This document shows, in pieces, positions 43,252 to 59,317 of a stretch of DNA of 64,000 bases. The notes beneath the pieces are model-generated. The model was given only the letters and a program-made list of their open reading frames with translations, searched no databases and was not told the origin of the DNA. The first letter of the stretch is position 1. Each line of letters opens with the position of its first letter. The stretch lies in the NCBI RefSeq assembly GCF_018332655.1, contig NZ_BOQL01000029.1, positions 1 to 64,000 of the forward strand, written 5' to 3'. A program made the position numbers and the translations under genes. The DNA is from Actinoplanes auranticolor (GTDB lineage Bacteria; Actinomycetota; Actinomycetes; Mycobacteriales; Micromonosporaceae).

Positions 43252-44051
43252 CGCTCACCCTGCCGACGTTCGAGGCGAGCACCGCGCCCCTCGCCCGGCG
43301 CAACCCGGTCGCCAAGCTCGCCGCCGCCCTGCTGTTCAGCGGTCCGCTGATCGCCACCCTGGACCCGCTGACCCCGACCATCGCCCTGGCCGTCGAGCTG
43401 GCGGTGCTGCCGCTGTTCGGGATGCGCTACGGCACCCTGTTCCGCCGGGCCTGGCCGCTGGTGCTCGCGGCCGGCGGCATCGTGATCACCCTGGTGATGT
43501 TCGCGGCCGAACGCACCGGCGCGACGGTGGCGACGCTGGGCCCGTTCGAGGTGACCACCGGCGTGCTGGTCACCGCGCTGGGCATGGTGCTGCGGGTCTT
43601 CGCGATCGCGCTGCCGGGCATCATCGTGTTCGCCACCACCGACCCCACCGACCTCGCCGACGCCCTGGTGCAGAACGTACGGGCGCCGGCCCGGTTCGCG
43701 ATCGGCGCGCTGGCCGCGTTCCGGCTGGTGCCGCTGCTCGGCGAGGAGTGGCAGATGCTGAGCCTGGCCCGCCGGGCCCGCGGCGTCGACGCCGGGCGCA
43801 ACCCGCTGGCCAAGCTACGGCTGTTCGTCTCGACGGCCTTCGCCCTGCTGGTGGGAGCCCTGCGGCGCGGCGGCCGGCTGGCGGTGGCGATGGACGCGCG
43901 CGGCTTCGACGCGGGCACGCCACGCACGTACGCCCGCCGCCAGACCTTCGGCCGCGCCGACGCCGCCCTCATGATCGGTGCGACGCTGGTCTCCGCCGCC
44001 GCCCTGACCACCACGGTCCTGCTCGGACTGTTCCGGCCGATCGTCGGCTGA
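43248..44051 (+). CDS. ykoC: ECF transporter transmembrane (T) subunit
   Basis: A 267-residue CbiQ-like T component coupling the ATPases to the S component. It has four to five membrane segments and the coupling helix motifs ARRARGVDAG and AMDARGFDAGTPRTYA, matching the conserved A-R-G pattern. The last 26 codons and the stop are repeated 15.09 kb downstream at 59061-59141, with one substitution and one inserted base. This suggests that an element entered at the 3' end of this gene while leaving the reading frame intact. Confidence 0.92.
   Translation: MTLTLPTFEASTAPLARRNPVAKLAAALLFSGPLIATLDPLTPTIALAVELAVLPLFGMRYGTLFRRAWPLVLAAGGIVITLVMFAAERTGATVATLGPFEVTTGVLVTALGMVLRVFAIALPGIIVFATTDPTDLADALVQNVRAPARFAIGALAAFRLVPLLGEEWQMLSLARRARGVDAGRNPLAKLRLFVSTAFALLVGALRRGGRLAVAMDARGFDAGTPRTYARRQTFGRADAALMIGATLVSAAALTTTVLLGLFRPIVG
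43972..44051 (+). repeat. Left direct repeat (ykoC 3' end), putative attL
   Basis: These 80 bp, ending with the ykoC stop codon, recur at 59061-59141 in the same orientation. Differences are T/C at 43979 versus 59068 and an extra G at 59118. The repeat marks the left edge of the inserted block. Calling it an attachment site is inference, because no integrase is visible. Confidence 0.85.
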
Positions 44052-44460
44052 GCCGCTCAGCCGGAACAGCGTTACCCCGTGCGTGTGACCGCCCGCCGGC
44101 CCTTCAGCGGGATTCCCGCTGTCCGCTCGACAGCCGACGCGCCGAGCGGAGCAGCCGCGACAGGCGCGCAGAAGGCCCGTCCACCCCGAAGAGACATCGA
44201 AGTCTGTCCCTACTCGTGATTGTCGCCGCTTGACGCTGCCCCTACCCTGAGCGAGCCGGTCGGTCATCACTCGTCCGCCGGCGGGCCGGGTCGCACGCTC
44301 GGCAGGATGCGCCGGCTTACCCGCACGCGCGCTTGTCGACCTGGTGACCGGCGAAAGAGGCTCCGATGTCAACACCCAGAGTCAGTGCCGCATTGGCACT
44401 CCGTGTTGTCGTCGCTAGACTGGGTCGGTCCGGACGTCGTCACAGGGCCGGGGGTCTGTA
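44052..44460. other. Gene-free left end of the island
   Basis: About 410 bp without a gene. It contains only the promoter-like pair at 44393-44421 near its right end. I see no integrase remnant or inverted terminal repeat. Short minus-strand frames here have no protein-like features. Confidence 0.55.
44393..44421 (+). promoter_or_regulatory. Sigma-70-type promoter for the fxsC-TIR-fxsT operon
   Basis: TTGGCA (44393-44398) and TAGACT (44416-44421) are separated by 17 bp, close to the housekeeping consensus. Transcription would start about 30 bp before the GTG at 44461. Confidence 0.65.
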
Positions 44461-45606
44461 GTGCCGAATTTCTTTCTGAGTTCGGCAGCCGGCGACGACG
44501 ACTCGTACGTCCGGCAGTTCTTCGACGATCTCCGCAGCCGGGTGGCGGCGATGAGTGCCGACCACAGTGCCGAGCTCTCCTTTCTGGGCACGATCGGTAG
44601 CCGAGACGCCGCCGTGCCGCCCGACATGCTGCTGCGTCTCGCCTCCTGCGATGTCTTCGTGGCACTGACCTCGCCTCGGTACTTCCGCAATGCCGCATGC
44701 GGCCGGCAATGGCGGATCTTCTCCGACCGGTTCCGGCCCGACGGAGACCGGTCGGCGATGCTGCCGGTGGCCTGGGCCGTCGACGCGGCGACGCCCGACT
44801 TCGTGGGCACGCCACTGACGGCGGCGCAGGACCCACCCCGCGGCCTACGACAGCTGATCCGCTTACGCGACCTGAGATCGACGTACGAGTCCTTCGTCGA
44901 CGAGCTGGCCCGGCGGATCGTCACCGTGGGCGAGACCGCACCGGCGCCGGCCGCGGAGCCGGTCGGGGACTTTTCCGCGGTGCCCGATCCCTTCGCGGCG
45001 TCCTCATCGGACCCGCGCGTGCACTTCATCGTCGCGGCCGCCCCCCGGCAGGAGATGGACCGGGTCCGCAAGGAGCTCGTGTACTACGGCAGCGAGGCGC
45101 GCGACTGGGCACCGTACCTGCCGGACACCCCGGGTTCGCTCGCCGGCCGGGCCCGGCAGCTGGCCGCGGACCAGTCGTTGCGGGCCGAGGTGACGGCCCT
45201 GGAGGATGTCATCGACCACATCGCCCGCGCCCGCGCCGCGCACGAGATCGTGGTCATCCTGTGCGACTGGTGGATCACCCAGCTCGAGGACTACCAGCGT
45301 CTGCTGGCCGAGATCGATCGGCGTGGCCTCGGGGACACCGCCGTGCTGGTGCCGGCGAGCCGCACCGACCGCGAGACCATGGAGCACCTCCCCGAGCTCC
45401 GCTTCGGACTGCGCACCACGTTCCGGCAGAGCACCCGCCTGCTCCAGGTTCCGTTGCACAGCGACATCGGCACCGCGGACGCCTTCGACGCCGACCTCGC
45501 CGAGGTTCTGGCGGAGGCACGCAACCGGATGTTCCGGGTCGGCGGCCCGGCCCGGTCCGATGCGGACGAGCCGATCGTCGATCGCCCGATGCTCCATGGC
45601 CCCTGA
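44461..45606 (+). CDS. fxsC: TIR-like protein FxsC
   Basis: A 381-residue protein with an N-terminal TIR-like domain (NFFLSSAAGDDDSYVRQFFDDL; CDVFVALTSPRYFRNAACGRQW, residues about 1-140), a short linker, and a C-terminal domain (DPRVHFIVAAAPRQEMDRVRKEL to the end) matching the FxsC C-terminal type described for FxSxx-COOH systems. Where NADase-type TIRs carry a catalytic Glu in CGxEW, this protein has Gln83 (CGRQW), so enzymatic activity is doubtful. The start is GTG 44461 behind GGGGG. It leads a plus-strand operon with a second TIR protein and FxsT. Family names come from recall of the FxSxx system. Confidence 0.8.
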   Translation: MPNFFLSSAAGDDDSYVRQFFDDLRSRVAAMSADHSAELSFLGTIGSRDAAVPPDMLLRLASCDVFVALTSPRYFRNAACGRQWRIFSDRFRPDGDRSAMLPVAWAVDAATPDFVGTPLTAAQDPPRGLRQLIRLRDLRSTYESFVDELARRIVTVGETAPAPAAEPVGDFSAVPDPFAASSSDPRVHFIVAAAPRQEMDRVRKELVYYGSEARDWAPYLPDTPGSLAGRARQLAADQSLRAEVTALEDVIDHIARARAAHEIVVILCDWWITQLEDYQRLLAEIDRRGLGDTAVLVPASRTDRETMEHLPELRFGLRTTFRQSTRLLQVPLHSDIGTADAFDADLAEVLAEARNRMFRVGGPARSDADEPIVDRPMLHGP

Positions 45607-45671
45607 ATGGCGCGGAGAAAGTACACTGAGTGATCGACTCCTCACGATCTTTCGTCCTCAGGAGCTCGCAC

Positions 45672-46382
45672 GTGGGATCGTCAGTCACACCTCCGCTCTT
45701 CTTCATCAGCTACGTGCACGACTCCGGTGAGGACGACCAGCACGTCCACCGGTTCTACCGCGATCTGAACCACGACGTGCTGATGTTCGCCGGGCGCCGC
45801 AGCACCGAGACGGCGGGCTTCTGCGACGTCTCGTTCCAGCTGGGGCAGCGCTGGTCCCCCGAGCTGATCAGGAATCTCAGCACGACCCAGGTGTTCATCC
45901 CGGTGCTGAGTCCCGCGTACTTCCGCAGCGAGGCCTGCGGCAAGGAATGGGCCATCTTCAGCTCGCGCCTGCACCGCGGCGGCCGGCCGGACTCCGCGGA
46001 CTCGTCGATCATCCCGCTGCTGTGGGTGCCGATGACGGTGCCCGAGATCGCCCAGCCGTACCAGTACAAGGATGCCGCCTTCGGCGCGGAGTACGAGCGG
46101 GCCAAGCTGCGCGCGCTGATCCGTGAGGAACGACGCCGCGACGACTACAACGCCTTCGTCCAGCAACTCGCCCAGCGGGTGGTCGACCTCAGCGAGACGG
46201 AGCCGGTCGCCGAGGCACCGGAACGGCCCGGCTTCGACGACGTCCGCTCGGCCTTCACCGTCGTACCGGAACCCCGCCGGCCCGCCGGCACCACCGCGAC
46301 CACGTCCCCCACCCGACGGCAGGCGCGCGACAGCGCCGACCGTCCCATCCTGAACGCCAATCTCACCGAGGACCTCCGATGA
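45672..46382 (+). CDS. TIR-like domain protein, second copy
   Basis: A 236-residue protein whose first 170 residues form a TIR-like domain: PPLFFISYVHDSGEDDQHVHRFYRDL, then STTQVFIPVLSPAYFRSEACGKEW with Glu92 at the position expected for the catalytic residue. The remaining 65 residues are low-complexity and probably disordered. GTG 45672 follows AGGAG eight bases upstream. The stop overlaps the FxsT start as ATGA. It differs from the first TIR protein in keeping the Glu and lacking the FxsC C-terminal domain, so it may be the active member of the pair. Confidence 0.82.
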   Translation: MGSSVTPPLFFISYVHDSGEDDQHVHRFYRDLNHDVLMFAGRRSTETAGFCDVSFQLGQRWSPELIRNLSTTQVFIPVLSPAYFRSEACGKEWAIFSSRLHRGGRPDSADSSIIPLLWVPMTVPEIAQPYQYKDAAFGAEYERAKLRALIREERRRDDYNAFVQQLAQRVVDLSETEPVAEAPERPGFDDVRSAFTVVPEPRRPAGTTATTSPTRRQARDSADRPILNANLTEDLR

Positions 46383-49300
46383 GCAGCAGCGCCGACAACG
46401 GCCCCGCCGGCCGGATCATCACCTTCTACAGCTACAAGGGCGGAACCGGCCGCACGATGGCGCTCGCCAACGTCGCCTGGCTGCTCGCGGCGAACGGCTA
46501 CAAGGTGCTGACCATCGACTGGGACCTGGAGTCGCCCGGGCTGCACCGCTACTTCCATCCGTTCCTCAAGGACAAGAACCTGCGCAACTCCGAGGGCATC
46601 CTCGATCTCATCCGCAAGCACTCCCAGACCGCCCTGCGGCCCGGCGGGCCGGCGGACCAGCTGCCCGAGCGGGCCCAGATCCAGGAGTACGCCGCCTCGC
46701 TGGACTGGGACTTCCCCCAGGGCGGCGTCCTCGACTTCGTACCCGCCGGGCGGCAGGACCTGGGCTACGCGGGAGCGGTCAGCACCTTCGACTGGGACAC
46801 GTTCTGGCACAAGCGCCAGGGTCGCCGGTTCCTGGACGCCCTGCGCGAGGACATGGCCCGCAACTACGACTTCGTGCTCATCGACAGCCGGACCGGCACC
46901 AGTGACACCGGCGGGATCTGCACGGTGCACCTGCCCGACACGGTGGTCAACTGCTTCACGCTCAACACCCAGAGCGTCAGCGGGGCCGTGGCGGTCACCG
47001 ACTCCATCCTCAAGCAGGCTCCCGGGATCACCGTGCTGCCCCTGCCCACCCGCATCGAGGACGGGGAGATGGCGAAGCTGGAGCGCGGACGGGTGTTCTC
47101 GCGGCGCAGCTTCGAGCCCTACCTCGGCTTCCTGGGCGACGGGCCGGCCGACGCCTACTGGAACAGCGTCGAGGTGCCGTACATCCCCTACTACGCCTAC
47201 GAGGAGATCCTCGCTGTCTTCGGCGACGTACCGCACCAGAACGGGCCGCTGCTGCGCCCGTACGTGAATCTCGCGTCCCGGCTCGCCGGCACCGCCTGCC
47301 CGGCGGCGGTCGTCCCGGAGAACGACCGCAACCGGGTGCTACGGGCCTTCGAGCAACCGGTCCCCCGGAAAAAGCGGACGATCATGGTGACCTACGCGCC
47401 CCTCGACCGGATCTGGGCCGAGTGGCTGCGCGACCGCCTGCACCGCGGCGGGCACCAGGTCGTCCTGCACGGCATCCGCGACTCCGTGCCGGACGTCGAC
47501 ACCCTCGACCATCTCGTGGTGATCTTCTCCCGGGACCTGGTGGCCCGCGAGAGCGGCCTGCGGTTGCTGCGGACCGCTCGCGACCGCATCGCCCACGGCG
47601 CGGACAACCTGGTCGCCGTCCTGCGGGTGGACGCGACCGCGATGGAGAGCCGAGTCCCGTCGCAGGTGCTGGTCGATGTGATGGGCGCGGGCGAGGAGCG
47701 CGTGCTCGAGTCGGTGTCGACTGCGCTCTCCCTCGACGCGACGGCCCTGCCGGGCAGCGGAGCGGGACCGGGTGAGGTGCGCTATCCGGCGGAGCTGCCG
47801 CCCCACTTCCAGGTCGCCCTCACCCGCAACCCCAGGTTCTCGGGTCGTGGCGGTGTCATCGAGAACATCCGCGACCGGCTGCTCAGCGGCGAGCCGAGCG
47901 GCGCCCGCCTGGCCCTGATCGGGCTGCCGGGGGTCGGCAAGACCCAGACCGCCCTGGAGTACGTGTACCGCTTCGCCGCCAGTTACGACGGCGTCTGGTG
48001 GATCTCCGCGACCCAGCCGGGCCGGGTCCGGGCCGCCCTGGCCGAGGTCGCGGCGAGGCTGGGGCTGCCCGGCGGCAACGTCGAGGACCAGGTCGCCGCG
48101 GCGCTCGAGGCCTTCCGGCGCGCCGTGCCGGTACGCCGCTGGCTGGTCGTCCTGGACAACGCAGACGCACCGGCGGACCTGGAGGGCCTGATCCCGTCCG
48201 GGCCGGGCCACGTCCTCGTGACCTCCCGCAACCCGCAGTGGACCAATGAACTCGACGCCGTCGACGTCGCGGTCTTCGAACGCGACGAGAGCCTGGAACT
48301 GCTCGGGCGCCGGGTCCGGCATCTCGCGCCGGCCGACGCCGACGAACTCGCGGGCCGCCTCGGCGACCTGCCGCTCGCCCTCGAACAGGCCGGTGGCTGG
48401 CTGAGCAGCACCGCCATGGCCGTCTCCGACTACCTGGAGCTGCTCGACCGGAGCACCGTCGAGGCGATGGGTGAGAGCGCCCCCGCGGCCTACAGCCAGA
48501 CGGTCGCCTCCACCGTCGGGGTCGCCTACGACCGGCTCGCCCAGACCAGCCCGGCCGCCACCCGGCTCATCGAACTTCTCGCATTCATGGCACCCGAGGT
48601 CGTCCCTTACCGGATGATCAGTAATAAACAACTGACCGCCCTGCTGGTCCCCATCGACCAGCGCATGTACGACCCGGCGCGGCACGGGTCGCTGATCCAG
48701 GACATCGGTCGCCTCGGACTCGCCCGGGTGGACGCGGGCACGAACGAAGGGAACCCGGACCCGGGCAGGCGTGGCATCGTGGTCCACCGGCTGACCCAGG
48801 ATATCGTCCGCTCGCGGTTGTCCCCGGCGGAGCAGGCCGACCGCAGGCAGGAGATCCAGAGCGTGCTGGCAGAAGCGGACCGGGGCAACCCGGACAGTGT
48901 CGAGAACCGGGCGGCCTACGAGGCCATCCGTCCCCACCTCGAGCCCAGCGGTGCGCTCACGTCCGACAGCCCGGAAACCCGGCAACTGATCATGGACATG
49001 ACCCGCTACCTCTACATGCGGGGCGATTACGAGGGATGCCGGGAACTCGCCGAGCGGGCTCTCGAGAAGTGGGTCGCCCGCTTCGGTCTCGACGACGTGT
49101 GGGTCCTGCGCCTCAAGCGAACGTTGGCCCTGGTGCTCCGCGAGCAGGGCCATGAGGCCGAGGCGTACGACATGAACGCCGACAGCCTCAAGCGCCTGAG
49201 CCGCACCCTGGGCGATGACGACCCGTACACCCTGGCGACCGCCATGAGCCACGGCGCGGATCTCCGGGCCCGCGGTGAGTACGAGAAGGCCGTGCTTCTG

Positions 49301-50293
49301 GACGAGCGGACTCTCAAGGGGTTCCGAGAGGTCTACGGTGACGATCACACAGAGACGCTGAGCGCCGCGAACAACCTCGCGGTCTCGCTCCGTTTCGTGG
49401 GCAACTTCCAGGAAGCCGCCCGGCGGGACCGCGACACGCTGCGTCGCCGCCGCGAGGTCATAGGTCCGCGTCATCTGTACGCCCTCAACTCGCAGGAGAA
49501 CCTCGGAGCCGATCTGGTCGAGCTCGGCGACCTGGTCCCCGCTCGCAACATGCTCGAGGAGGCCTATGAAGTCACCCGCCGGGATCACGGCGAGGATCAC
49601 TTCCGCTCCTTACGGATCGCCTGCACCTACTCGGTCTCCCTCCGCCGGCTCAACGAGGTGACCAAGGCGGCGGAGGTGATCGATGACGCCGTACGCCGTG
49701 CCGAAGCCGTGCTCGGCCACCGTCACCGGGTGACCCTCAGCTGCCGCCTCGAGCAGGCGGACGTGCGCTGGGCGGAAGGCCGCACCAAGGAGGCGCGCGC
49801 GGTCGCTGAGGAGGTCTACGCCGACTTCCAGCACGCCCGGGGCGAGCATCACCCCGACGCCATCGCCGCCGGCAACGACCTCGCCATCTTCCGGCGGCTC
49901 TCGGGGGACGCGCCGGGCGCGCTGATCCTCGCCGAGCAGACCTTCGAACGCCTGGAGGGCCTGTTCCACCCGGGTCATCCCTACACCGTCGCCGGAATGA
50001 TCACCCTGGCGAACGCCCGGTTCACCGACGGCTCGCAGCGCCTGGCCCAGGAGACCGACACCGCGGTGCTGCAACGGGTGCGGCGGACGTTCACCGACCG
50101 CCATCCGGCGGTGCTCGCCGCCATGGTCAACTGGGCCGTCAGTCACCGGCCGGACGACCCGGACGCCGCCGGCCGTACCCGCGACGAAGCGGTCAAGAAG
50201 CTCGACGAGATCCTCGGCGCGCACCATCCGAGCACGATCGCCGCGGTCGAGTGGCACCGCATCGACCAGGACATCGCGCCGTTCGCCATCTAG
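46379..50293 (+). CDS. fxsT: FxsT-type multidomain STAND ATPase with TPR
   Basis: A 1304-residue protein. Residues about 12-300 are a ParA/MinD-like P-loop domain with the variant Walker A KGGTGRT (Lys20 to Thr26). Residues about 325-445 resemble a TIR-like domain (IMVTYAPLDRIWAEWLRDRL...HLVVIFSRDLVARESGL). Residues about 490-830 are an NB-ARC module with GLPGVGKT at 515-522, VVLDNAD and LPLALEQAGGWL. The C-terminal 430 residues are TPR-like repeats (ALNSQENLGADLVELG and similar). This order matches the tetratricopeptide protein of FxSxx-COOH systems. Such STAND proteins oligomerise on ligand sensing. Its stop overlaps that of the convergent HExxH gene. Confidence 0.85.
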   Translation: MSSSADNGPAGRIITFYSYKGGTGRTMALANVAWLLAANGYKVLTIDWDLESPGLHRYFHPFLKDKNLRNSEGILDLIRKHSQTALRPGGPADQLPERAQIQEYAASLDWDFPQGGVLDFVPAGRQDLGYAGAVSTFDWDTFWHKRQGRRFLDALREDMARNYDFVLIDSRTGTSDTGGICTVHLPDTVVNCFTLNTQSVSGAVAVTDSILKQAPGITVLPLPTRIEDGEMAKLERGRVFSRRSFEPYLGFLGDGPADAYWNSVEVPYIPYYAYEEILAVFGDVPHQNGPLLRPYVNLASRLAGTACPAAVVPENDRNRVLRAFEQPVPRKKRTIMVTYAPLDRIWAEWLRDRLHRGGHQVVLHGIRDSVPDVDTLDHLVVIFSRDLVARESGLRLLRTARDRIAHGADNLVAVLRVDATAMESRVPSQVLVDVMGAGEERVLESVSTALSLDATALPGSGAGPGEVRYPAELPPHFQVALTRNPRFSGRGGVIENIRDRLLSGEPSGARLALIGLPGVGKTQTALEYVYRFAASYDGVWWISATQPGRVRAALAEVAARLGLPGGNVEDQVAAALEAFRRAVPVRRWLVVLDNADAPADLEGLIPSGPGHVLVTSRNPQWTNELDAVDVAVFERDESLELLGRRVRHLAPADADELAGRLGDLPLALEQAGGWLSSTAMAVSDYLELLDRSTVEAMGESAPAAYSQTVASTVGVAYDRLAQTSPAATRLIELLAFMAPEVVPYRMISNKQLTALLVPIDQRMYDPARHGSLIQDIGRLGLARVDAGTNEGNPDPGRRGIVVHRLTQDIVRSRLSPAEQADRRQEIQSVLAEADRGNPDSVENRAAYEAIRPHLEPSGALTSDSPETRQLIMDMTRYLYMRGDYEGCRELAERALEKWVARFGLDDVWVLRLKRTLALVLREQGHEAEAYDMNADSLKRLSRTLGDDDPYTLATAMSHGADLRARGEYEKAVLLDERTLKGFREVYGDDHTETLSAANNLAVSLRFVGNFQEAARRDRDTLRRRREVIGPRHLYALNSQENLGADLVELGDLVPARNMLEEAYEVTRRDHGEDHFRSLRIACTYSVSLRRLNEVTKAAEVIDDAVRRAEAVLGHRHRVTLSCRLEQADVRWAEGRTKEARAVAEEVYADFQHARGEHHPDAIAAGNDLAIFRRLSGDAPGALILAEQTFERLEGLFHPGHPYTVAGMITLANARFTDGSQRLAQETDTAVLQRVRRTFTDRHPAVLAAMVNWAVSHRPDDPDAAGRTRDEAVKKLDEILGAHHPSTIAAVEWHRIDQDIAPFAI

Positions 50294-51954
50294 CCAGATC
50301 CTTCCGACGGTCCCTCCGGGAGCCAACGGGCTAGCTGCCCCGGCGGCGCGGCCTGCCGGCGCTCGGCCAACAGCTCCCACAGCGCCCGGAGGAGATCCGG
50401 GCGTTCGTAAGCGGCTCGGACGCCGGTGGCATGCAGGGCGACGGCCAGCGCGGTCCAGTCCCGGTCCGAGGCCGGAGCGGCGAGCAGGCGTATCGCCTTG
50501 CCGTACTCCTCCCCCGCGACCGCCCACTCGGCGCCGGTGAGGCCGGCCGGCGGGCGCCCGTCCAGCCACGTCTCCGTCAGGGCGCGGGCCAGGGCGAGCG
50601 GCGGCTCGGCCGGCGTGGCCACCATCTCCGGCGGTCCGGCCGGCCGTGGGGCGGCACCTCGCTGCCAGGCGTCGGCGAGATCGGCGACATCGGGGCGACG
50701 GGGCCGGTGACAGGCGAGCCGCCAGGCGACGTGGGTCGCCTCGGCGCTCCGGCGGGCCGCCGCGATCGCGGGTGACTCGTCGCGCCAGGAGTCGACGACC
50801 TCGCCCAGCTCGGCGAAGAACCAGGCGCCCTCCGCGGTCAGCTCGCCGGACCGCCGCAGCTGGGCCAGCGCGTAGCCGACGTGTTCGCGCCACGAGGCGA
50901 AGAGGTACTCGGCCCGGCGACGGGCCTCGCCACGGAGGTGCCGCCGGTGTTCCTCCCAGAAGCCGGCGACCCCGGCGAAGGCGTAGCAGCCCTGCACCAG
51001 AGCGGCGGCCGGGCGCGGATCGGGCCGCCAGGGAGCATGAAAGCGTGCCGGTCCGCCGTCGGCGCACAGGTCCACCAGGTCCAGGACAGCGCTCATCTTG
51101 TCGTGCTGGAACTCGTGCACGAGCAGTTCGGCTGCCGTGGACGCGGCGGGCGGCGGCGAGAGCCCGACGGCGCCGAACGTACCGCGGACCGAGGCGCTGA
51201 CCTGTCTGCCGTCGGCCGGTGTCCGCAGCGGCACGACGGCGTGCAGGGCCAGGCGCATGGCTTCCGCGTGTCGCGGTTGCTCGTACTCCAGCAAGTGCCA
51301 GGCGTCCGCGATCACACGGCCGTACGCGGCTCCCTCAGCCGGCGACAGCGGCGGCAGGGGCGGCTGCGGGAACCGGTCCCGGAGCGGGTCGGTGTCGATG
51401 ATCTCGATCGTGTGGCCGGGCACCACCACCCGGAGCGCGGGACGCCAGCCGGGCGCCGACCCGGTGGAACCGGGACGCAGCCGCAGCGACCCGCCGATCG
51501 ACAGCACCGCGCCGTCGAACCGGACCTCGCAGCGGCCGGGCCCGACCGCCGTCGCCGTACCGAGGCCGGGCAGGACCAGATCCGGGCCGGTGTCGACGAC
51601 GAGGTGACACGGCAGTCCCGCGGACACAGCGGTGGCCACCGCCAGCGCCCCGAGGTAGCCGCCCGCGGTGTCGCCGGCCGGCGACGCGTCTCGCGCCGCC
51701 TCGGCGAACCAGGCGTCGAGGAACGGATGGCGCAGCAGCCGCCGTCCCGCCGCGGGATCGTCGCGGTCGATGCGGGCCACGAGGGCGAGGGCGTCCCGGA
51801 GTCCGGGCCGGCCGGCGGACGACTCCGCGATCGCCAGCAGATACAGCCGACGCCGGGAAAGCTGACTGTCGACGAGCAGCGCCATCGCCTGCGGATCGCC
51901 GTGCCCGCGGGCGAGGTCACGGAGCTGCTCGCGGGTGAGGACGTACTCCTGCAT
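50290..51954 (-). CDS. HExxH-motif peptide-modification protein
   Basis: A 554-residue protein of the HExxH-containing putative peptide-modification family that accompanies FxsB-type radical SAM enzymes. The motif is HEFQH (residues 280-284) in LLVHEFQHDKMSAVLDL. Some members are now considered 2-oxoglutarate-type peptide beta-hydroxylases rather than proteases. In many FxSxx systems this region is fused to FxsB in an inactivated form; here it is a separate gene with the motif intact. ATG 51954 lies one base after the radical SAM stop. Its stop codon shares the tetranucleotide CTAG (50290-50293) with the convergent fxsT stop. No membrane or signal segment is seen. Confidence 0.8.
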   Translation of the reverse strand: MQEYVLTREQLRDLARGHGDPQAMALLVDSQLSRRRLYLLAIAESSAGRPGLRDALALVARIDRDDPAAGRRLLRHPFLDAWFAEAARDASPAGDTAGGYLGALAVATAVSAGLPCHLVVDTGPDLVLPGLGTATAVGPGRCEVRFDGAVLSIGGSLRLRPGSTGSAPGWRPALRVVVPGHTIEIIDTDPLRDRFPQPPLPPLSPAEGAAYGRVIADAWHLLEYEQPRHAEAMRLALHAVVPLRTPADGRQVSASVRGTFGAVGLSPPPAASTAAELLVHEFQHDKMSAVLDLVDLCADGGPARFHAPWRPDPRPAAALVQGCYAFAGVAGFWEEHRRHLRGEARRRAEYLFASWREHVGYALAQLRRSGELTAEGAWFFAELGEVVDSWRDESPAIAAARRSAEATHVAWRLACHRPRRPDVADLADAWQRGAAPRPAGPPEMVATPAEPPLALARALTETWLDGRPPAGLTGAEWAVAGEEYGKAIRLLAAPASDRDWTALAVALHATGVRAAYERPDLLRALWELLAERRQAAPPGQLARWLPEGPSEGSG

Positions 51955-51955
51955 G

Positions 51956-53092
51956 TCAGCCGCGCAGGGCGAGCTTCGCGGCGACCCGGGCCTGCACATG
52001 GGTGATCAGACGGTAGAGGTCCCGGCAGTAGACGGACGGGTAGCCGAAGCCCCCCTCGGGATCGAACCGGTGCGAATACTGGCCGCCGCCGCAGACCGTC
52101 ACCACCGGGCAGGCTCGGCACCCGCGCGCCAGCTTCACAAGAGTGCGCTCGGTCGCGAGCACGGCGGGATGACGCATCGCCTCATCGAGGGAGTGCCGGT
52201 GCACGGACATGCCCAGGGCCCCCAGCCCCGGGGCGGTGGTCTTGAGCGCGTCGGTGACCTCCAGGCTGCCGTCGGTCTCCACGGTGATCGCCGCGGCCGA
52301 GTCGAGACCGACCGCTTCCGTGTCGCTGGGGCCCCCGAGCAGCAGGGAGATGATCGACTCGAACAGCCGGATGCCGGTCTCCCGGACCGGCGCGTCGAAC
52401 CAGCGGTCGAACACCCGGATGAGCCAGTCGGCGTACGGCGTCGTCGCCGGATCGTGCCCGGGCGGCCGGTGCACCCAGTTCGCCAGCGGAAGCAGGAGGT
52501 CGAGGCTCGGCGGTCCGAGAGCGAGCAGGTCCTCGTAGACCTGGAGCGGGTCGTTGCTGAGGTCGACCGTGCACAGCAGCCCCGTCCAGACGTCCCCGGC
52601 CGCGCGCATCCGGTCGATCCCCTGCACCGCCAGGGCGAAGCTGGGCCGGCCGTCCGCGAAGCGGCGGTGCCGATCGTTGGCCTCCCGGCCACCGTCCACG
52701 CTCACCCCGACGCCGACGCGGTGACGCCGGAAGACCTCGACGAAGCGGTCGTCGACGAGGGTGCCGTTGGTCTGCAGGGTGACGTCGACCGAGGTACGCG
52801 GCGCGGCCGCCCGGATCGCGGTGATGACCTCGGCTATCCGGTCCGGCCCCGCGAGCAGCGGCTCGCCCCCGTGCAGGACCACGAAGATCTTCTCGAGCCC
52901 GTGGGCGCGGGCGTGCTCACCGATGCGCGCCGCCAGGGCCGCGGTCGTCCGCCCGCTCATGATCATCGGCCGGTCGCGCCAGCTCTGATCGACGTGGTGG
53001 TAGACGTAGCAGTAGTGACATGACAGGTTGCAGCGGCTGTGCAACTTCACGATGAACTGCCGGAAGGGCTGCTCCGGACTGTCGGCGTCCAT
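51956..53092 (-). CDS. fxsB: Radical SAM/SPASM peptide maturase, FxsB-like
   Basis: A 378-residue radical SAM enzyme. The [4Fe-4S]-SAM motif CNLSCHYC (Cys21, Cys25, Cys28) is followed by FVVLHGGEPLLAG, VTLQTNGTLVDD and GVGVSVDGG. A C-terminal SPASM-like cysteine cluster is present (ARGCRACPVVTVCGGGQYSHRF...VYCRDL). FxsB-type enzymes cross-link an aromatic residue to a nearby side chain, forming cyclophanes in the precursor peptide. ATG 53092 starts five bases after the precursor stop; a longer upstream frame overlaps the precursor and is less likely. It probably acts on the 65-residue peptide encoded just before it. Confidence 0.88.
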   Translation of the reverse strand: MDADSPEQPFRQFIVKLHSRCNLSCHYCYVYHHVDQSWRDRPMIMSGRTTAALAARIGEHARAHGLEKIFVVLHGGEPLLAGPDRIAEVITAIRAAAPRTSVDVTLQTNGTLVDDRFVEVFRRHRVGVGVSVDGGREANDRHRRFADGRPSFALAVQGIDRMRAAGDVWTGLLCTVDLSNDPLQVYEDLLALGPPSLDLLLPLANWVHRPPGHDPATTPYADWLIRVFDRWFDAPVRETGIRLFESIISLLLGGPSDTEAVGLDSAAAITVETDGSLEVTDALKTTAPGLGALGMSVHRHSLDEAMRHPAVLATERTLVKLARGCRACPVVTVCGGGQYSHRFDPEGGFGYPSVYCRDLYRLITHVQARVAAKLALRG

Positions 53093-53097
53093 GCGGA

Positions 53098-53295
53098 TCA
53101 GGAACGGCGCAGCGGCGCGGCGTTGAAGGCGGCAACACTGTCCCGCTTGCCCGACGCCGCGTTCTCCAACACCCGACGCAGGCAATGATCAAGCACCGTG
53201 TCCCCGCCCTCCCGTAGGGCGAGCAGTTCCTCCAGGGACAGATCGGCGGCGCGGACGAGGCCGGTTCGGATCGCGGTCGCGGGCGGTGGCGTCAT
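53098..53295 (-). CDS. fxsA: FxsA-like precursor peptide with variant C terminus
   Basis: A 65-residue peptide directly upstream of the radical SAM gene. The leader part LVRAADLSLEELLALREGGDTVLDHCLRRVLEN, read in pieces, resembles FxsA leaders (leucine-rich helix, then a conserved L-R-R-V-L). The C terminus is VAAFNAAPLRRS. Canonical members end Phe-x-Ser-x-x-COOH; here the aromatic is followed by Asn-Ala-Ala and six more residues, so the expected core differs. ATG 53295 overlaps the acetyltransferase stop as ATGA. If FxsB acts here, Phe57 is the only aromatic residue near the end and the likely cross-link site. Confidence 0.72.
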   Translation of the reverse strand: MTPPPATAIRTGLVRAADLSLEELLALREGGDTVLDHCLRRVLENAASGKRDSVAAFNAAPLRRS

Positions 53296-54140
53296 CGCAT
53301 CTCACTTTCGTGGCCCACGGCGGGGCCGGGTTCCCGGCGCAGGGGACGCCGAGGGGCGAGCCAGTTTTCTGCGAAACGCACCGCTTCGCGAACAGGGAAT
53401 AGGCGACTCGTCGCTGCACCGACCATCGCCCGGCAGAGATAGGCGTCTTTGTCGTACTCTGCCTCGTAGTCGGCTCCCAGGTCGCCGAAATCGTGATCAT
53501 CGAGTCCGGCCGTTTCGTATCTTACCCACTCGCGCCCGTTTTCGGTTCGCACAACGGCAGTCAGCTGCACGACGCGCAACCCCGGCAGACGCGACTCCGC
53601 CAGGTGGAATGCGGTGCATTTCTCGTAGCCGACGCCGAGCAGCAGGACCTTGGCGCCGGCCCGCTCCAGCGCCGCCAGCGGCGATCCGTCCCCCAGCAGG
53701 GAGTCCAGGCGATGCTCCGCCATGAGCGCGGCCGCCTGCCGGCCGACCGCCGCGAACGAGGTCAGCGGATGTCCACTTCGGGCGGAGCCGGGCCACGTGC
53801 GGACCCGCTCGGCCACGGCGCCCATGCCGTCACTGGGTGTCAGCGCCGGCTCGAAGGGCGGCAGATGCTCGCGGATCGTGTCCCACCACTGCGATGGAAC
53901 CGTGCGGTGCGACCACCGGGAGGGATCGCGGTTGTCGGGGGTCTGGGCCGGGACGACGATCGTCCCGTACGGCCCCACCGCCTCGAGCAGAGCCTGGACG
54001 ACCGCGGTCGCACCCCCGCAGACCCAGCCGATGGACCGCATCGAGCTGTGTACGAGGAGCACGTCTCCGGCCCGCACCCCCAGCAGCGTGAATTCCCGGG
54101 TGAGTAATTCACGTGTTCTCATGGGTATGTCGACGTTCAC
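53292..54140 (-). CDS. AAC(3)-family N-acetyltransferase
   Basis: A 282-residue protein of the aminoglycoside 3-N-acetyltransferase/YokD family, which transfers acetyl from acetyl-CoA to amines. Typical stretches are LGVRAGDVLLVHSSMRSIGWVCGGATAVVQALLEAVG when read in parts, GTIVVPAQT, and LLLGVGYEKCTAFHLAE carrying the conserved His. Several starts are open; GTG 54140 is preferred because GGAGG lies ten bases upstream, with ATG 54122 and ATG 54170 as alternatives. It is the first gene of the peptide operon, so it may acetylate the precursor, the mature peptide or an unrelated amine. Classical aminoglycoside resistance is possible but not implied by context. Confidence 0.83.
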   Translation of the reverse strand: MNVDIPMRTRELLTREFTLLGVRAGDVLLVHSSMRSIGWVCGGATAVVQALLEAVGPYGTIVVPAQTPDNRDPSRWSHRTVPSQWWDTIREHLPPFEPALTPSDGMGAVAERVRTWPGSARSGHPLTSFAAVGRQAAALMAEHRLDSLLGDGSPLAALERAGAKVLLLGVGYEKCTAFHLAESRLPGLRVVQLTAVVRTENGREWVRYETAGLDDHDFGDLGADYEAEYDKDAYLCRAMVGAATSRLFPVREAVRFAENWLAPRRPLRREPGPAVGHESEMR

Positions 54141-54238
54141 GATCGGGGGTCCTCCGTTCAGCCGGCTCATCGACTGTCCGCGCAGTTCCTGGCCTTGCCT
54201 TTATCGTCGTTCATCCGGCCACCGCCGAACGCCGTTCT

Positions 54239-54261
54239 GTCAACCCCGTGCACAAGTTGAC
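54239..54261. promoter_or_regulatory. Inverted repeat GTCAAC-N11-GTTGAC in the divergent gap
   Basis: The repeat lies between the acetyltransferase operon and the divergent NB-ARC/TPR gene. The right half starts a TTGACGA element that recurs near 54309, giving two direct TTGACGA copies. On the minus strand the left half reads TTGACA. The region probably holds both promoters and a shared regulatory site. Confidence 0.5.
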
Positions 54262-54353
54262 GACTATTGGCCCCAGGACTTCCAATGGACTTCCGGCGTC
54301 TGGCGAAACTTGACGATTGCTGACGGGGTACGCCGGCGAACGGGGGCTTCATC

Positions 54354-57200
54354 GTGGCGAGGGCACCGCGACCGGGTCCGCCCGCCGACGGCCCGCTGAG
54401 TGATCTCGTCCGTGCCCTGCACGAGTTGCATCGTGACGCCGGAAAGCCGGGAGTCCGCCGGATCAGCACCGCGATCCGCGATCACGAGGACATGCGCGAC
54501 ACGGTCAGTCACGAGACGATCAGCGCGATGCTCCGCGGCAGCGGCCTGCCGAAGTGGGTCAAGGTCGAATGCGTGGTCCGCCAGCTCGCCGAGTGGTCGG
54601 TGACCGGGCTGGACCCCGACCGGGAGGTCCGCCGCTTCCATCAGCTCTGGCTGGCGGCCGACGACGGTCCCGCGGCCGTGCTCCCGGCCCGCGTGCGGAG
54701 CGATTTCGTGGTCGCCGGCGGGCCGGTCCCGGTTCCGGCGGCTCCGCCCGCCACCACCGCGATGCTGACCAACGTCCCCGGCCCGGCCCCGCACTTCACC
54801 GGCCGCCGTGACCTGCTGAACCGGATCCGGGCCACGCTGACCGGCCCGGGTTACGCACCGCTGCCCCTCGTCGGCGTCGGCGGCGTCGGCAAGACCCAGC
54901 TCGCCCTGCAGTACGTCGACCGCTGGGCGGCCGAGTACGACGTGCTCTGGTGGGTGCCGGCCGAGCAGTCCTCACAGGCGATGGCGGCCCTCGCGGCACT
55001 GGGCGACCAGCTGGGCATCACCGCGTCCAACGACATGCGGCAGACCGTCCGCGACGTGCTGACCACCCTCGAGGCGAGCGCGCTGCGCTGGCTGCTGGTC
55101 TACGACAACGCCGATCAACCGACGGACCTGGGCCTGCTTCTTCCCGCGACCGGCGGACATGTGCTCGTCACCTCCCGTAACTCCGCCTGGGAGCACGCCC
55201 TGAACGTCGACGTCTTCTCCCGCGAGGAGAGCATCGCCTTCCTGCGCGAGTGGGGCGTGACCGCGCCCGCCGACGACTGTGACGCCCTCGCCGAGCAGCT
55301 CGGCGACCTCCCGCTGGCGCTCGACCAGGTCTGTGCGATGCAGACCGCGACGGGGATGCCGGTGGCGGAGTACCTGCGGCTGTTCGCCGAGCACTTCGAC
55401 GAGTTGCTCGCGGCCGGTGGCAGGCGCGGCTCCCGGACCACGACGGTCACCACGTTCGTCAACGTCGCCGCCGGACGGCTGCGGGCGGAGTCCGTGGCGG
55501 CGTCCCAGCTGCTCGAGCTCCTGGCGTTCATGGCGCCCCTGCCGGTGCCGGTCTCCCTGCTCCACCTGGGACGGGACGCCCGGGTCACCCCGCCGCTGGG
55601 CCGGGTGCTCTACCGCACCGACGACCTGAGCAAACAGGCGCTGCACCTGGGCCGGTACGGCCTGGCCCAGGTGAGCAGCGACGGGCAGCAGCTCCAGATG
55701 CATCGCCTGGTGCAACGCGTGGTCCGCGACGGCTTGAGCGACGCGGACGCCCGGGTCCGCCGCCTCGACGTGCACCGGCTACTGGCCGCCGCCGACCCGG
55801 GCAAGCCCGACGACTCGCGCACCTGGAGCCAGCACGGCGAGATCGGGCCGCACCTGATCTCGTCCGATGCCCTGCACTCCACCGAGACCGCGGCCCGGGA
55901 GGCGGTACTCCATCAGATCCGCTACCTGGAACGTATCGGTGACTTCGAGGCTTCCGCACGGTTGGGAGGCAGCGCCGTCGAAGCCTGGCGGGCGGATCCG
56001 GCGGACGGCGGGCTCGGGGCGGAGCACGAGCTCACCGTCCGGGCCACCCGCCACCTCGCCAACGCCCTCCGTTCGCTCGGTGCGTACGCCGAGTCCCGCA
56101 ACATGATCATCGAACTGCTGGACCTGCTCCGGAGCAGCCGGACCTACGGTCCGGATCATCCCGACACCCTGGCGACAGCCGGGGTTCTGGCGTTCTACCT
56201 GAGATTCGCGGGGGATTACCGGCGGGCGCTCGACGAGGACCGTCGCCGGGTCGAGGTCCTCCAGCGCCTGCACGGCGCGGACGACACCCGCACCACGGAC
56301 GCGCTGGGCAATCTGACGGTCAACCTGAGACTGCTGGGCGACCCGGCGGCTGCGCTCCGACACGACGAGGAGCTGGTGCGGACCCTCACCCGTATCGCCG
56401 GCCGGGAGAACGAACGCACCCGCGTCGCCGTCCGCAACCAGGTGTGGGACCTGCTCGCCCTCGGCCGGTTCAGCGAGGCGGTCGACGAGCAGCGCCGGAA
56501 CATGCCACGGTTCAACGCCAACGAGATCACGGTGGCTCAGCGGGCCATCGCGGTGGGTCTGCGCAAGCTGGGCCGGCTGGACGAGGCGCTGGCGGAGGCG
56601 ACGGACAACTACCGGACCTGCCAGCGGCGATACGGGCCGGACCATCATCTGACGTTGGCCTCGATCATGACCTATGCGAACACGCTGCGTGCCGTCGGGG
56701 ATGCGGTGGGAGCGCGACGGCTCGCCACCGAGGCGCTCGACCGGTACCGGCGGTTGTTCGGGGAGCAGAACCCGCTGACCCTGGCCGCCTCGACGAATCT
56801 GACCGTGGTGCTGCGGTCACTCGGGCAGTGGCGGGAGGCGCACAACATCGACGAGCTCACCCATGAGCAGACCGTCCGGGTGCTCGGCGCGGACCACCCC
56901 CATGCGCTGGTCACCGCGATCGGGCTCGGCAACGACCTGGCCCACCACCACATCGGCAAGGACGCCGTCGCGCTGGGCACCGCCACCCTGGAGGGCCTGC
57001 GCCGGGTCCGGGGCGACGACCATCCTGAGACCTGGATCTGCGCCACCAACCTCGCTCTCGACACAGGAGCACCGGGGCACCCCCGTCACCGCGAGGCCGT
57101 CGAGCGGCTCGCCGCGCTCGTGGGCGCCGATCATCCCGACGCCCGGGCCGCCGCCGCGGGAGTGCGGCTGGAATGTGACATCGAGCCGCCGCCCACCTAG
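54354..57200 (+). CDS. HTH-NB-ARC-TPR protein, second FxsT-like
   Basis: A 948-residue STAND protein. Residues about 15-85 resemble a helix-turn-helix or related small domain (LVRALHELHRDAGKPGVRRISTAIR; TVSHETISAMLRGSGLP). The NB-ARC module has GVGGVGKT at residues 174-181, LLVYDNAD, VLVTSRN and LPLALDQVCAM. The C-terminal half is TPR repeats with GPDHPDTLATAG and GADHPHALVTAI-type motifs at about 42-residue spacing. It lacks the KGGxGR and TIR-like parts of the first FxsT. The start is GTG 54354 behind GGGGG. It may be a regulator of the divergent peptide operon or a second sensor. Confidence 0.85.
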   Translation: MARAPRPGPPADGPLSDLVRALHELHRDAGKPGVRRISTAIRDHEDMRDTVSHETISAMLRGSGLPKWVKVECVVRQLAEWSVTGLDPDREVRRFHQLWLAADDGPAAVLPARVRSDFVVAGGPVPVPAAPPATTAMLTNVPGPAPHFTGRRDLLNRIRATLTGPGYAPLPLVGVGGVGKTQLALQYVDRWAAEYDVLWWVPAEQSSQAMAALAALGDQLGITASNDMRQTVRDVLTTLEASALRWLLVYDNADQPTDLGLLLPATGGHVLVTSRNSAWEHALNVDVFSREESIAFLREWGVTAPADDCDALAEQLGDLPLALDQVCAMQTATGMPVAEYLRLFAEHFDELLAAGGRRGSRTTTVTTFVNVAAGRLRAESVAASQLLELLAFMAPLPVPVSLLHLGRDARVTPPLGRVLYRTDDLSKQALHLGRYGLAQVSSDGQQLQMHRLVQRVVRDGLSDADARVRRLDVHRLLAAADPGKPDDSRTWSQHGEIGPHLISSDALHSTETAAREAVLHQIRYLERIGDFEASARLGGSAVEAWRADPADGGLGAEHELTVRATRHLANALRSLGAYAESRNMIIELLDLLRSSRTYGPDHPDTLATAGVLAFYLRFAGDYRRALDEDRRRVEVLQRLHGADDTRTTDALGNLTVNLRLLGDPAAALRHDEELVRTLTRIAGRENERTRVAVRNQVWDLLALGRFSEAVDEQRRNMPRFNANEITVAQRAIAVGLRKLGRLDEALAEATDNYRTCQRRYGPDHHLTLASIMTYANTLRAVGDAVGARRLATEALDRYRRLFGEQNPLTLAASTNLTVVLRSLGQWREAHNIDELTHEQTVRVLGADHPHALVTAIGLGNDLAHHHIGKDAVALGTATLEGLRRVRGDDHPETWICATNLALDTGAPGHPRHREAVERLAALVGADHPDARAAAAGVRLECDIEPPPT

Positions 57201-57233
57201 GACCGGCGGTGAAGGCCGGCCCGGCCCACCGCG

Positions 57234-59015
57234 TCACACCAGGTGGGCCGTCCGGCCGCGCTGCGGATCGGAGATCCTGACCACTTGGAATCCCGCGTCG
57301 GCCAGGATGGCCGGCAGCTCCCGCACCGCCGCGCGGCTCTTCTCGCGGCGCTCGTGGGGCAACTCGGCCCAGTCGAGCAGATACGGCGTCAGCTTCGCCC
57401 ACGGCTCACGAGTGGGACCGTACCGCCAGCCGGCCGCGGTGGCCTCGCTCAGCCAGCGCTGCTGTTCGTCCTGAGCGAGCTGCTCCACCTCGTCCGGCGA
57501 CAGAGTGAAGTCGCCCGGCCCGCTGCGAGCGACGATCGTGCAGCCGATGGCGTTCAGCTTCGTACCGATGGATCCGGCCTGTGACCGGTTGAAGCCCCGG
57601 CGTTCCTCGTCGAGGTTCACCCATGGCACCAGTGCGGCCGGGTCGGTGGGCTCGCCCGGGTGTTCCCGGCACTCGATCACGTAGCGCTCGTGGATGAGCC
57701 GGGCGAGCCGTTCCACCAGATCCTCGGCGATGAGTGCCGGGTCGCACGCGCTGCTGTGCTTGGGGAAGAGTTTGATCTTTCCGTGCACCTGGTCGAGGAG
57801 AGGGCGGCCGTACTCGTCGCCGAAGGCATCGGTGAGACCCGCCAGGCGGTCGACCGGCACGAGTACGGTTCCGGCGACGCGGTGCCACAGCTCGTACGCG
57901 GTAAGGGCCACCTGCAGGCCGTACTCCTCGTCCTCGTAGCAGAGGTAGGCGTCGTCGTACGCCAGCTCGGGATGCTCAGCGAGCAGGGTGGGCACATCCG
58001 TCTCGTGCGCCGTGACTGTGCACGCCTGCTCGAGGACCGGGTAGCGGCTGTGCAGCGCGGCGAGAGCGGCCACCGCGCCGGGCCGGACGAAGTCGACCGC
58101 TATCCGCGTCCGGTGGCCGCTGCGCCGCAGCCGCCAGTCCCGGGCCAGCGAGACCAGCAACGCCCGGGCGAACGGCGCGTCCCCGGCCACCAGGAGCCTG
58201 GGGAGATCCGGCCCGATCGGTTCCAGCGGCCGCTGGGCGAGCAGCACCTGCACGGCGAGCTGGTCGAGATTGAAGAAGTCGAGCCGCAGTCCCGGAGCGG
58301 CGTCGACCCCCAGCCGCCGGGCCTGCAACGCCATGGCCCGATCCGGGTCATGGATCTGGGCGTAGACGGTCGCCGGGCCGGAGTCGTCGTCGACCACCCG
58401 GCCCGCGGCGGCGGCGATGGCCACGTTGGTCGCGCTGTCGTCGGTGCAGGCATAGATGACGGTGGCCCGGTCCGCGCCGGCGCCACGGAGCACGTCCGGG
58501 TCCGTGGCATCGCCGGTCACGCCCAGCAGGTTTCCCCGGCGCATCTCCAGTGGTCCGATCGGACGACTGCGGATCACCACGGTCTTGCGCTGTGCCATCG
58601 CGAGGTTCCGGGCCAGCGCGGCGGCGGCGGACGAGTCGCCGCAGACGATGGCGTGGCCGCGGGCGTTGCGGGCGCGCATCCGGCGGAGCTCGGTGGCCAG
58701 CAGCAGCCGGACCGCTTCGGTCAGCGCGAACAGGGTCACCGCCGGTGCCGCGAAGCGGGCGATCTGCAACGTCAGCGGGAAGTCCGTGGCGTCCTGGAGC
58801 GGATCGGCACCGAGGACGAAGAGCTGGAGATCGAAGTAGAGGAGATTGAGGAACGTTCGCCCGGGCAGTTGCTGCTCGACGAAGTAGCGGTCGAGTCCGT
58901 GGTAGCCCAGGATGAGCGCGGCGAGCGCCAGGGCCGCGAAGGTCAGACGTACGACGGCGGCGGCGTGCCGGCTCAGACCAGGAGACGCGGATGCATCGAT
59001 ACTCGCCACAGCCAT
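57234..59015 (-). CDS. TrkA-N and RyR-domain membrane protein
   Basis: A 593-residue protein with two membrane segments (about residues 22-42 and 87-107) like a minimal ion-channel pore region, then TrkA-N-type Rossmann domains (HAIVCGDSSAAAALARNLA with the nucleotide loop, and VTGDATDPDVLRGAGADRATVIYACTDD when read in parts). A C-terminal RyR domain follows, with the family core VPWVNLDEERRGFNRSQAGSIGTKL in pieces and QQRWLSEATAAGWRYGPTREP (about residues 460-570). RyR domains in bacteria are linked to conflict systems and may bind nucleotide-like ligands. It is convergent with the NB-ARC/TPR gene and closes the island. Confidence 0.8.
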   Translation of the reverse strand: MAVASIDASASPGLSRHAAAVVRLTFAALALAALILGYHGLDRYFVEQQLPGRTFLNLLYFDLQLFVLGADPLQDATDFPLTLQIARFAAPAVTLFALTEAVRLLLATELRRMRARNARGHAIVCGDSSAAAALARNLAMAQRKTVVIRSRPIGPLEMRRGNLLGVTGDATDPDVLRGAGADRATVIYACTDDSATNVAIAAAAGRVVDDDSGPATVYAQIHDPDRAMALQARRLGVDAAPGLRLDFFNLDQLAVQVLLAQRPLEPIGPDLPRLLVAGDAPFARALLVSLARDWRLRRSGHRTRIAVDFVRPGAVAALAALHSRYPVLEQACTVTAHETDVPTLLAEHPELAYDDAYLCYEDEEYGLQVALTAYELWHRVAGTVLVPVDRLAGLTDAFGDEYGRPLLDQVHGKIKLFPKHSSACDPALIAEDLVERLARLIHERYVIECREHPGEPTDPAALVPWVNLDEERRGFNRSQAGSIGTKLNAIGCTIVARSGPGDFTLSPDEVEQLAQDEQQRWLSEATAAGWRYGPTREPWAKLTPYLLDWAELPHERREKSRAAVRELPAILADAGFQVVRISDPQRGRTAHLV

Positions 59016-59060
59016 GAATACATTGTGTCATCGATGCGCTACTACCCGTCAGGAACTTCC

Positions 59061-59141
59061 TGATCGGCGCGACGCTGGTCTCCGCCGCCGCCCTGACCAC
59101 CACGGTCCTGCTCGGACGTGTTCCGGCCGATCGTCGGCTGA
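59061..59141 (+). repeat. Right direct repeat (ykoC 3'-end relic), putative attR
   Basis: An 81-bp copy of the ykoC 3' end (43972-44051) in the same orientation. An extra G at 59118 shifts its frame, so it codes for nothing. If the block is an insertion, this is the displaced original end of ykoC. A small hairpin CCGCGC-N8-GCGCGG follows at 59181-59200 and may be the old ykoC terminator. Confidence 0.85.
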
Positions 59142-59317
59142 CGTCCGGTCCGATCGTCCAGCTGCGACAGTTCGTCCCACCCGCGCCTTTTGATGCGCGG
59201 CTGTGCATGAAACCCTTCCGTGTTCGTCCGGCGGTCACCCCGGCGCCATCCGGCGTTGCCGTGCGGGCGCGAGATTGGCCAGGTCATCCCCTTGTCGATC
59301 TTCGGGAGCCATGGGAC

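Follow-up and report, generated by a model that had tools for sequence, protein, structure and literature searches.

A block of about 15 kb that holds a complete FxSxx-type peptide cassette lies directly behind the ykoC gene of Actinoplanes auranticolor, between two nearly identical copies of the last 80 bp of that gene, and comparison with congeners shows that it is an insertion between ykoC and the native right neighbour of that gene, which encodes a CehA/McbA-like metallohydrolase. We tentatively favour, at a probability of about 0.48, a single insertion of a ready-made cassette that duplicated its target. What the data show is the tail repeat, an empty site in relatives, conservation of the cassette at other loci, and a block that lacks a recombinase; how the tail came to be duplicated is inferred. 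The window analysed is a stretch of 64,000 bp, positions 1–64000 of contig NZ_BOQL01000029.1 (C29), in a 9.88-Mb draft genome of 142 contigs, and the gene name ykoC is that used in an earlier note on this DNA. The earlier note had read the block as an island that integrated at the 3' end of ykoC; the insertion stands, and the role of ykoC as its attachment site is not supported (see below). Features of the locus are collected in Table 1.

Table 1. Features of the ykoC locus and the inserted block (window coordinates)
Feature	Position	Strand	Evidence or remark
ykoC, ECF-transporter T component, intact	43248..44051	+	best NCBIfam match TIGR02454 (CbiQ), 65 bits, under cut-off of 111.8
Left repeat copy, last 80 bp of ykoC including TGA	43972..44051	+	
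Left spacer	44052..44196	.	67 genus genomes give no further DNA match at E <= 1e-6
fxsC upstream region	44197..44460	+	71% to G044 cassette; from 44309 also 75% to G036
FxsC, TIR-like	44461..45606	+	TIGR04276 113 bits, cut-off 55; NF040588 100 bits, under cut-off of 130
Second FxsC N-terminal/TIR protein	45630..46382	+	NF040588 160 bits, cut-off 130
KGGVGR-type ATPase + TIR_2 + NB-ARC + TPR	46379..50293	+	NF040586 FxSxx_TPR 875 bits, cut-off 300
HExxH protein	50290..51999	-	TIGR04267 144 bits, cut-off 40; HEFQH at residue 295
FxsB radical SAM/SPASM maturase	51956..53092	-	TIGR04269 450 bits, cut-off 370; CNLSCHYC (CxxxCxxC) intact
FxsA-like precursor, 65 aa	53098..53295	-	C-terminus AAFNAAPLRRS; TIGR04268 26.7 bits, cut-off 28
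Antibiotic_NAT / AAC(3)-like protein	53292..54170	-	PF02522 282 bits; NF033082 191 bits, under cut-off of 270
Second FxSxx_TPR STAND protein	54354..57200	+	NF040586 797 bits, cut-off 300
TrkA_N + RyR-domain protein	57234..59015	-	domain annotation
RyR gene upstream region	59016..59043	.	aligns with G036 cassette; right limit of detectable cassette homology
Right ykoC-tail copy, outside any intact gene	59061..59141	+	81 bp; 1 substitution, 1 inserted G
Native intergenic stretch	59142..59317	.	alignable to G037 clearly from about 59209
CehA/McbA-like metallohydrolase, Tat-like leader	59318..61036	+	NF038032 66 bits, under cut-off of 80; ORF opens at 59207

The ykoC tail repeat and the empty site in congeners

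The 80 bp that end with the ykoC TGA recur in the same orientation as an 81-bp copy at the far end of the block, and the two differ by one substitution (T/C) and by one G inserted in the right copy, exactly as the earlier note had described. Direct reading and blastn agree on this (43969–44051 against 59058–59141, 96.4% identity over 84 columns, E = 5e-34), and the match is far beyond chance; the tail has two copies in the whole draft genome, where the next match is 24 bp long (E 8.5e-4). Downstream of both TGAs the bases diverge immediately. The inserted G shifts the right copy out of frame and makes it a dead fragment. A block flanked by direct repeats, one of which completes the neighbouring gene, bears a mark of genomic islands. 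It is very improbable that the block was misjoined at the repeat during assembly: the genome is indeed a draft in many contigs, but the two copies, which lie inside a single contig of 131,589 bp, differ at two places within the strict repeat and are flanked by different sequences, that on the right being native (see below). An 80-bp repeat is also shorter than the usual short read pair, which counts further against such an artefact.

The survey of congeners (Actinoplanes being taken as the genus in the broad sense) covered 65 ykoC loci, each with a downstream stretch of at most 19 kb; two of the loci have a poor ykoC end (L075, which runs through N, and L076, a weak match). In 26 of the 65, among them the locus of the closest congener, G037, a CehA/McbA-like gene follows within 250 bp of ykoC on the same strand (L113 is counted here on a partial CehA match of 73 amino acids), and genes of the block are present in none of the 65 stretches, islands much larger than 19 kb falling outside such stretches. 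The alignment with relatives lacking the island that the earlier note had proposed as a check is thus positive, and an empty site in relatives is a further mark of an island. At the other loci the CehA-like gene lies farther away on the same strand (17), is inverted (11) or is absent from the stretch (8), or the contig ends (3). Among the eight genomes without it in the stretch, G029, G043, G030, G023 and G024 have none at E <= 1e-80, and G041, G013 and G020 carry one on another contig. In G018 and G057 the contig ends close to ykoC, in DNA rich in repeats, and that of G100 also breaks; upstream of the CehA-like genes of G018 and G057 the ykoC tail finds only chance-level matches.

The ykoC gene of G037 is 90% identical to that of the window, and its junction with the CehA-like gene is 168 bp long. 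This intergenic sequence matches the right flank of the block from about 59209 (none of 1000 shuffles is as good) and matches the left flank no better than shuffles do (524 of 1000 reach the score), from which it follows that the right side is native and that the block came in between. By eye, 15 of the 20 bases after the ykoC stop codon are like those of G037, and the left spacer was considered as a native intergenic remnant; this idea was dropped on the shuffle result.

Compared with ykoC of the window, the G037 gene has 16 differences in the last 80 positions and 77 over the full 804, and at the single site where the two tails of the window are substituted, it has the base of the right copy. 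Since the tails differ from each other by only one substitution and one indel, the duplication is younger than the split from G037. A tail from another species should differ more, so an origin in the resident ykoC is indicated; judged by this divergence, the second tail was probably copied from the lineage's own ykoC or from a very closely related gene.

The FxSxx cassette and its copies in the genus

Pfam and NCBIfam annotation bears out the gene kinds that had been named from the sequence (TIR, STAND ATPases, radical SAM maturation and RyR), and the block holds genes for peptide signalling and, probably, for immunity. The models for the FxsB maturase, for the FxSxx_TPR STAND proteins (twice) and for FxsC (a different model for each of the two genes) all score above their cut-offs (Table 1). 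An FxsA-like gene directly upstream of fxsB, which was missing from the earlier list, encodes a precursor that is kept in five other cassettes (G036, G001, G050, G008 and G044; see below) at 69–75% identity and with the ending FNAAPLRRS or FNAAPLRR, a conserved variant that is narrowly missed by the curated models. No ORF fragment ending in FxSxx, as an F-x-S-x-x-COOH precursor would, is present in window positions 43900–59300 or in four other cassette regions. Judged by their domains, FxsB would cross-link the FxsA-like peptide, which may then undergo further modification by the HExxH protein. The STAND/TIR proteins would sense a trigger and answer it with an NAD-derived signal, to be read by the TrkA_N-RyR membrane protein; a TIR-to-RyR signalling step inside the cassette is a reasonable guess. 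No catalogued defence system was assigned, the PADLOC matches being only partial (PDC-M28B on the ATPase N-terminus and viperin models on the radical SAM domain).

The cassette is conserved at other places in the five congeners just named and is thus a portable unit found at several places in one genus. Its gene order is that of the window in G036, G001, G050 and G008; G001 and G050 have it at one common locus, pieces of which are present in G008, and G036 and G044 have it elsewhere. The G044 copy (G044:C1, L160/L161) was found by DNA, and the other four came from the 8 genomes examined among 22 others with a RyR-protein match; 13 of the 22 lay outside the cassette search, and the cassette may be commoner in the genus than the copies found. 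A TrkA_N-RyR gene is adjacent in five of the six copies, the exception being that of G044, which has a 53% similar RyR gene elsewhere in its genome, and this gene looks like an optional module of the cassette.

Several smaller observations concern the cassette genes. The sequence upstream of the RyR gene (CATTGTGTCA; window 59016–59043) is common to the right ends of the window, G036 and G008 copies, and may be a promoter or operator. The AAC(3)-like gene is kept within the cassette in all five congeners, and one is also found near FxsB in Streptomyces hyaluromycini (L164, 47%). Two FxSxx regions with another gene order, L132 in G053 and L133 in G037, have two FxsB-like genes each and also hold RyR and AAC(3)-like genes at 42–55% identity.

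Homology to the G036 cassette covers 44309–59043, and that to the G044 cassette begins at 44197. The G036 homology stops short of both ykoC tails, which places them outside the conserved unit, and the empty site in close relatives lets the limits of that unit (about 44197–59043) be read directly. No comparable end repeats were found around the five other copies (836 bp of left flank being covered in G008); weak repeats near them, such as one of 53 bp (77%) in G001 and one of 33 bp (82%) in G036, do not exceed chance level and do not mark the ends, and the G044 cassette has no repeat that is above 85% identity and 4 kb apart.

Recombinases, attachment sites and the origin of the second tail

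The footprint of the block is of the kind that an integrase leaves, and the suspicion of an insertion that it had raised was justified. A CIME-like relic or satellite, placed by a tyrosine or serine recombinase that has been lost or works in trans and flanked by tails that would be attL and attR, is a serious rival reading, though a less probable one. It would account for a same-orientation repeat that ends at the stop codon and lies between an intact gene to the left and native flank to the right, and for the empty sites in relatives; CIMEs are already a described kind of element, defined in excerpts of PMC5704250 as elements that lack integration genes and keep attL and attR; and 20 tyrosine-recombinase (PF00589) and three large-serine-recombinase (PF07508) matches in the same genome, all on other contigs, could act in trans. 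What it lacks is a recombinase in or near the block. Pfam and NCBIfam annotation of the block gives no site-specific recombinase, and its largest gene-free gap, 409 bp, leaves no room for an integrase gene. Profiles made from 14 tyrosine- and two serine-recombinase domains of the same genome found nothing at E <= 0.1 among 11,312 six-frame fragments of at least 60 amino acids from 58 ykoC loci, the five other cassette neighbourhoods and the 64-kb window, seven later-added ykoC loci being outside this search; in a leave-one-out control 14 of the 14 tyrosine domains were recovered, and the serine profile was checked only on its own two members. Neither an IME recombinase nor traces of a CIME parent element came to light at the locus.

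The other expectations of integrase action fare no better. Among 50,697 phage and 72,556 plasmid records, no attP-like tail covering 80% of a 161-bp query was found (weak partial matches occur in 31 phage and 50 plasmid records, of which the best 10 of the 31 and the best 10 of the 50 were viewed), and the exact degenerate pattern of the ykoC tail is absent from the viral contigs searched. A search for ykoC 3'-end repeats in other genomes, which the earlier note had advised, turned up no comparable one in the 65 congener loci, and reuse of the ykoC site by other elements was likewise not found there. The two tails are almost identical, though ykoC varies strongly between species, and their 80 bp exceed the 8–60 bp that excerpts of PMC5704250 give for tyrosine-recombinase IMEs. 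With no recombinase, no recurrence of the tail repeat and no attP-like copy, and with the cassette present elsewhere in five congeners without comparable end repeats, the view that ykoC is the attachment site for this type of island is not upheld, and no finding here makes ykoC a regular docking site for mobile islands. Attachment at the 3' end of a protein-coding gene is in any event of a known kind, IMEs at this position in housekeeping genes for proteins being described in excerpts of PMC5704250. Among the matches listed from the open-access papers searched, none ties ykoC to an integrase or a genomic island. That the ykoC 3' end is all the same a genuine attB, and the cassette an integrase-less satellite moved in trans by a resident recombinase, is unlikely; if it were so, a defence-and-signalling cassette would be hitch-hiking on host mobile-element machinery, and little-studied peptide systems would be linked to site-specific mobility.

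The clearest tail repeats after ykoC in congeners are those of L054 (G030; 21 bp at 95%) and L070 (G035; 28 bp at 86%). Such short duplications lend something to a history in two steps, in which slippage duplicated the ykoC end in tandem before the cassette inserted between the two copies, but they are only 21–28 bp long and at most 60 bp away from the stop codon, and an independent insertion that split an 80-bp duplication exactly at its border would be a coincidence; we regard this history as quite improbable. Short ykoC-end repeats or iterated units after the stop codon are also seen by eye at L120 and L105.

Two kinds of hot spot were considered and dropped. Tail duplications were found at 2 of 56 ykoC ends and at 3 of 357 other ORF ends (Fisher p 0.14; the control ORFs were taken mechanically and some are not genes), so ykoC ends are not significantly more prone to them, a result that also speaks against the single insertion that we favour. 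As to the ykoC–CehA interval as a hot spot for mobile cargo, no integrase was found in the four scanned of the 17 same-strand intervals with extra cargo. The 17-kb interval of G104 (10 proteins scanned) encodes LacI, solute-binding and permease components, a fucosidase, a two-component pair and similar proteins, and those of G038, G017 and G048 (10 proteins in all, one of them CehA-like) encode regulators and kinases, with a Mutator-family transposase in G048.

In the favoured single insertion, the cassette of about 15 kb would have entered once, after the split from G037, directly behind the ykoC stop codon, and the event would have duplicated the last 80 bp of the resident gene, the left copy staying in the working gene; the near identity of the tails indicates that the copy was made from the resident gene. 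The frameshift of the right tail may have been gained since the insertion or carried from the start. The duplication would be due to repair or template switching during capture of foreign DNA and not to an integrase, candidate routes being the end joining of a staggered break and the integration, through one crossover, of a circle with an acquired copy of the tail. The frequent empty sites, the recency of the tail, the cassette homology that stops short of the tails and the failure to find a recombinase all argue for this reading. Against it, the stop codon is precisely where the repeat ends, and ykoC is restored, which is the classic footprint of an integrase and which a random duplication need not produce; no end-joining scar is evident; and the target duplications known from transposons fall far short of 80 bp (excerpts of PMC5704250 give a case of 8 bp). 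The proposed duplication mechanism has no exact precedent among those tested here. The insertion itself would then be gene gain of the ordinary sort, remarkable only for the length of its target duplication, and it documents the recent gain of a complete FxSxx-type cassette.

Comparison with known systems

The block resembles the CIMEs, IMEs and ICEs at the 3' ends of protein genes that are described in excerpts of PMC5704250 in its direct repeats, one of them in an intact gene end, and it has no integration genes. Unlike those elements as described there, it shows neither a trace of a parent element nor accretion, it does not recur at ykoC, the other copies of the cassette lack repeats, and its 80-bp tails are nearly identical.

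Excerpts of PMC7159879 (eLife 2020) describe standalone peptide-processing systems of this kind in actinobacteria and propose that the processed peptide is a toxin or a signal that amplifies a conflict system. The cassette of the window has in common with them a short precursor, FxsB, TIR domains, and an AP-ATPase (NB-ARC) that has TPRs and a MinD/ParA-like N-terminus. It differs from the systems of those excerpts in the FNAAPLRRS end of its precursor, which scores just under the TIGR04268 cut-off, in having two FxSxx_TPR proteins and a separate, intact HExxH protein, and in its conserved AAC(3)-like gene and mostly adjacent TrkA_N-RyR gene.

Phage RyR-domain proteins that degrade or bind cADPR signals are reported in a preprint (PMC13232231, excerpts). 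TrkA is not mentioned in that preprint, which does not treat TrkA_N-RyR proteins such as the one predicted from domain assignments in the cassette. With TIR and RyR domains in one cassette, the system may be like Thoeris-type TIR/cADPR signalling, a likeness that suggests an NAD-derived signal and its reader.
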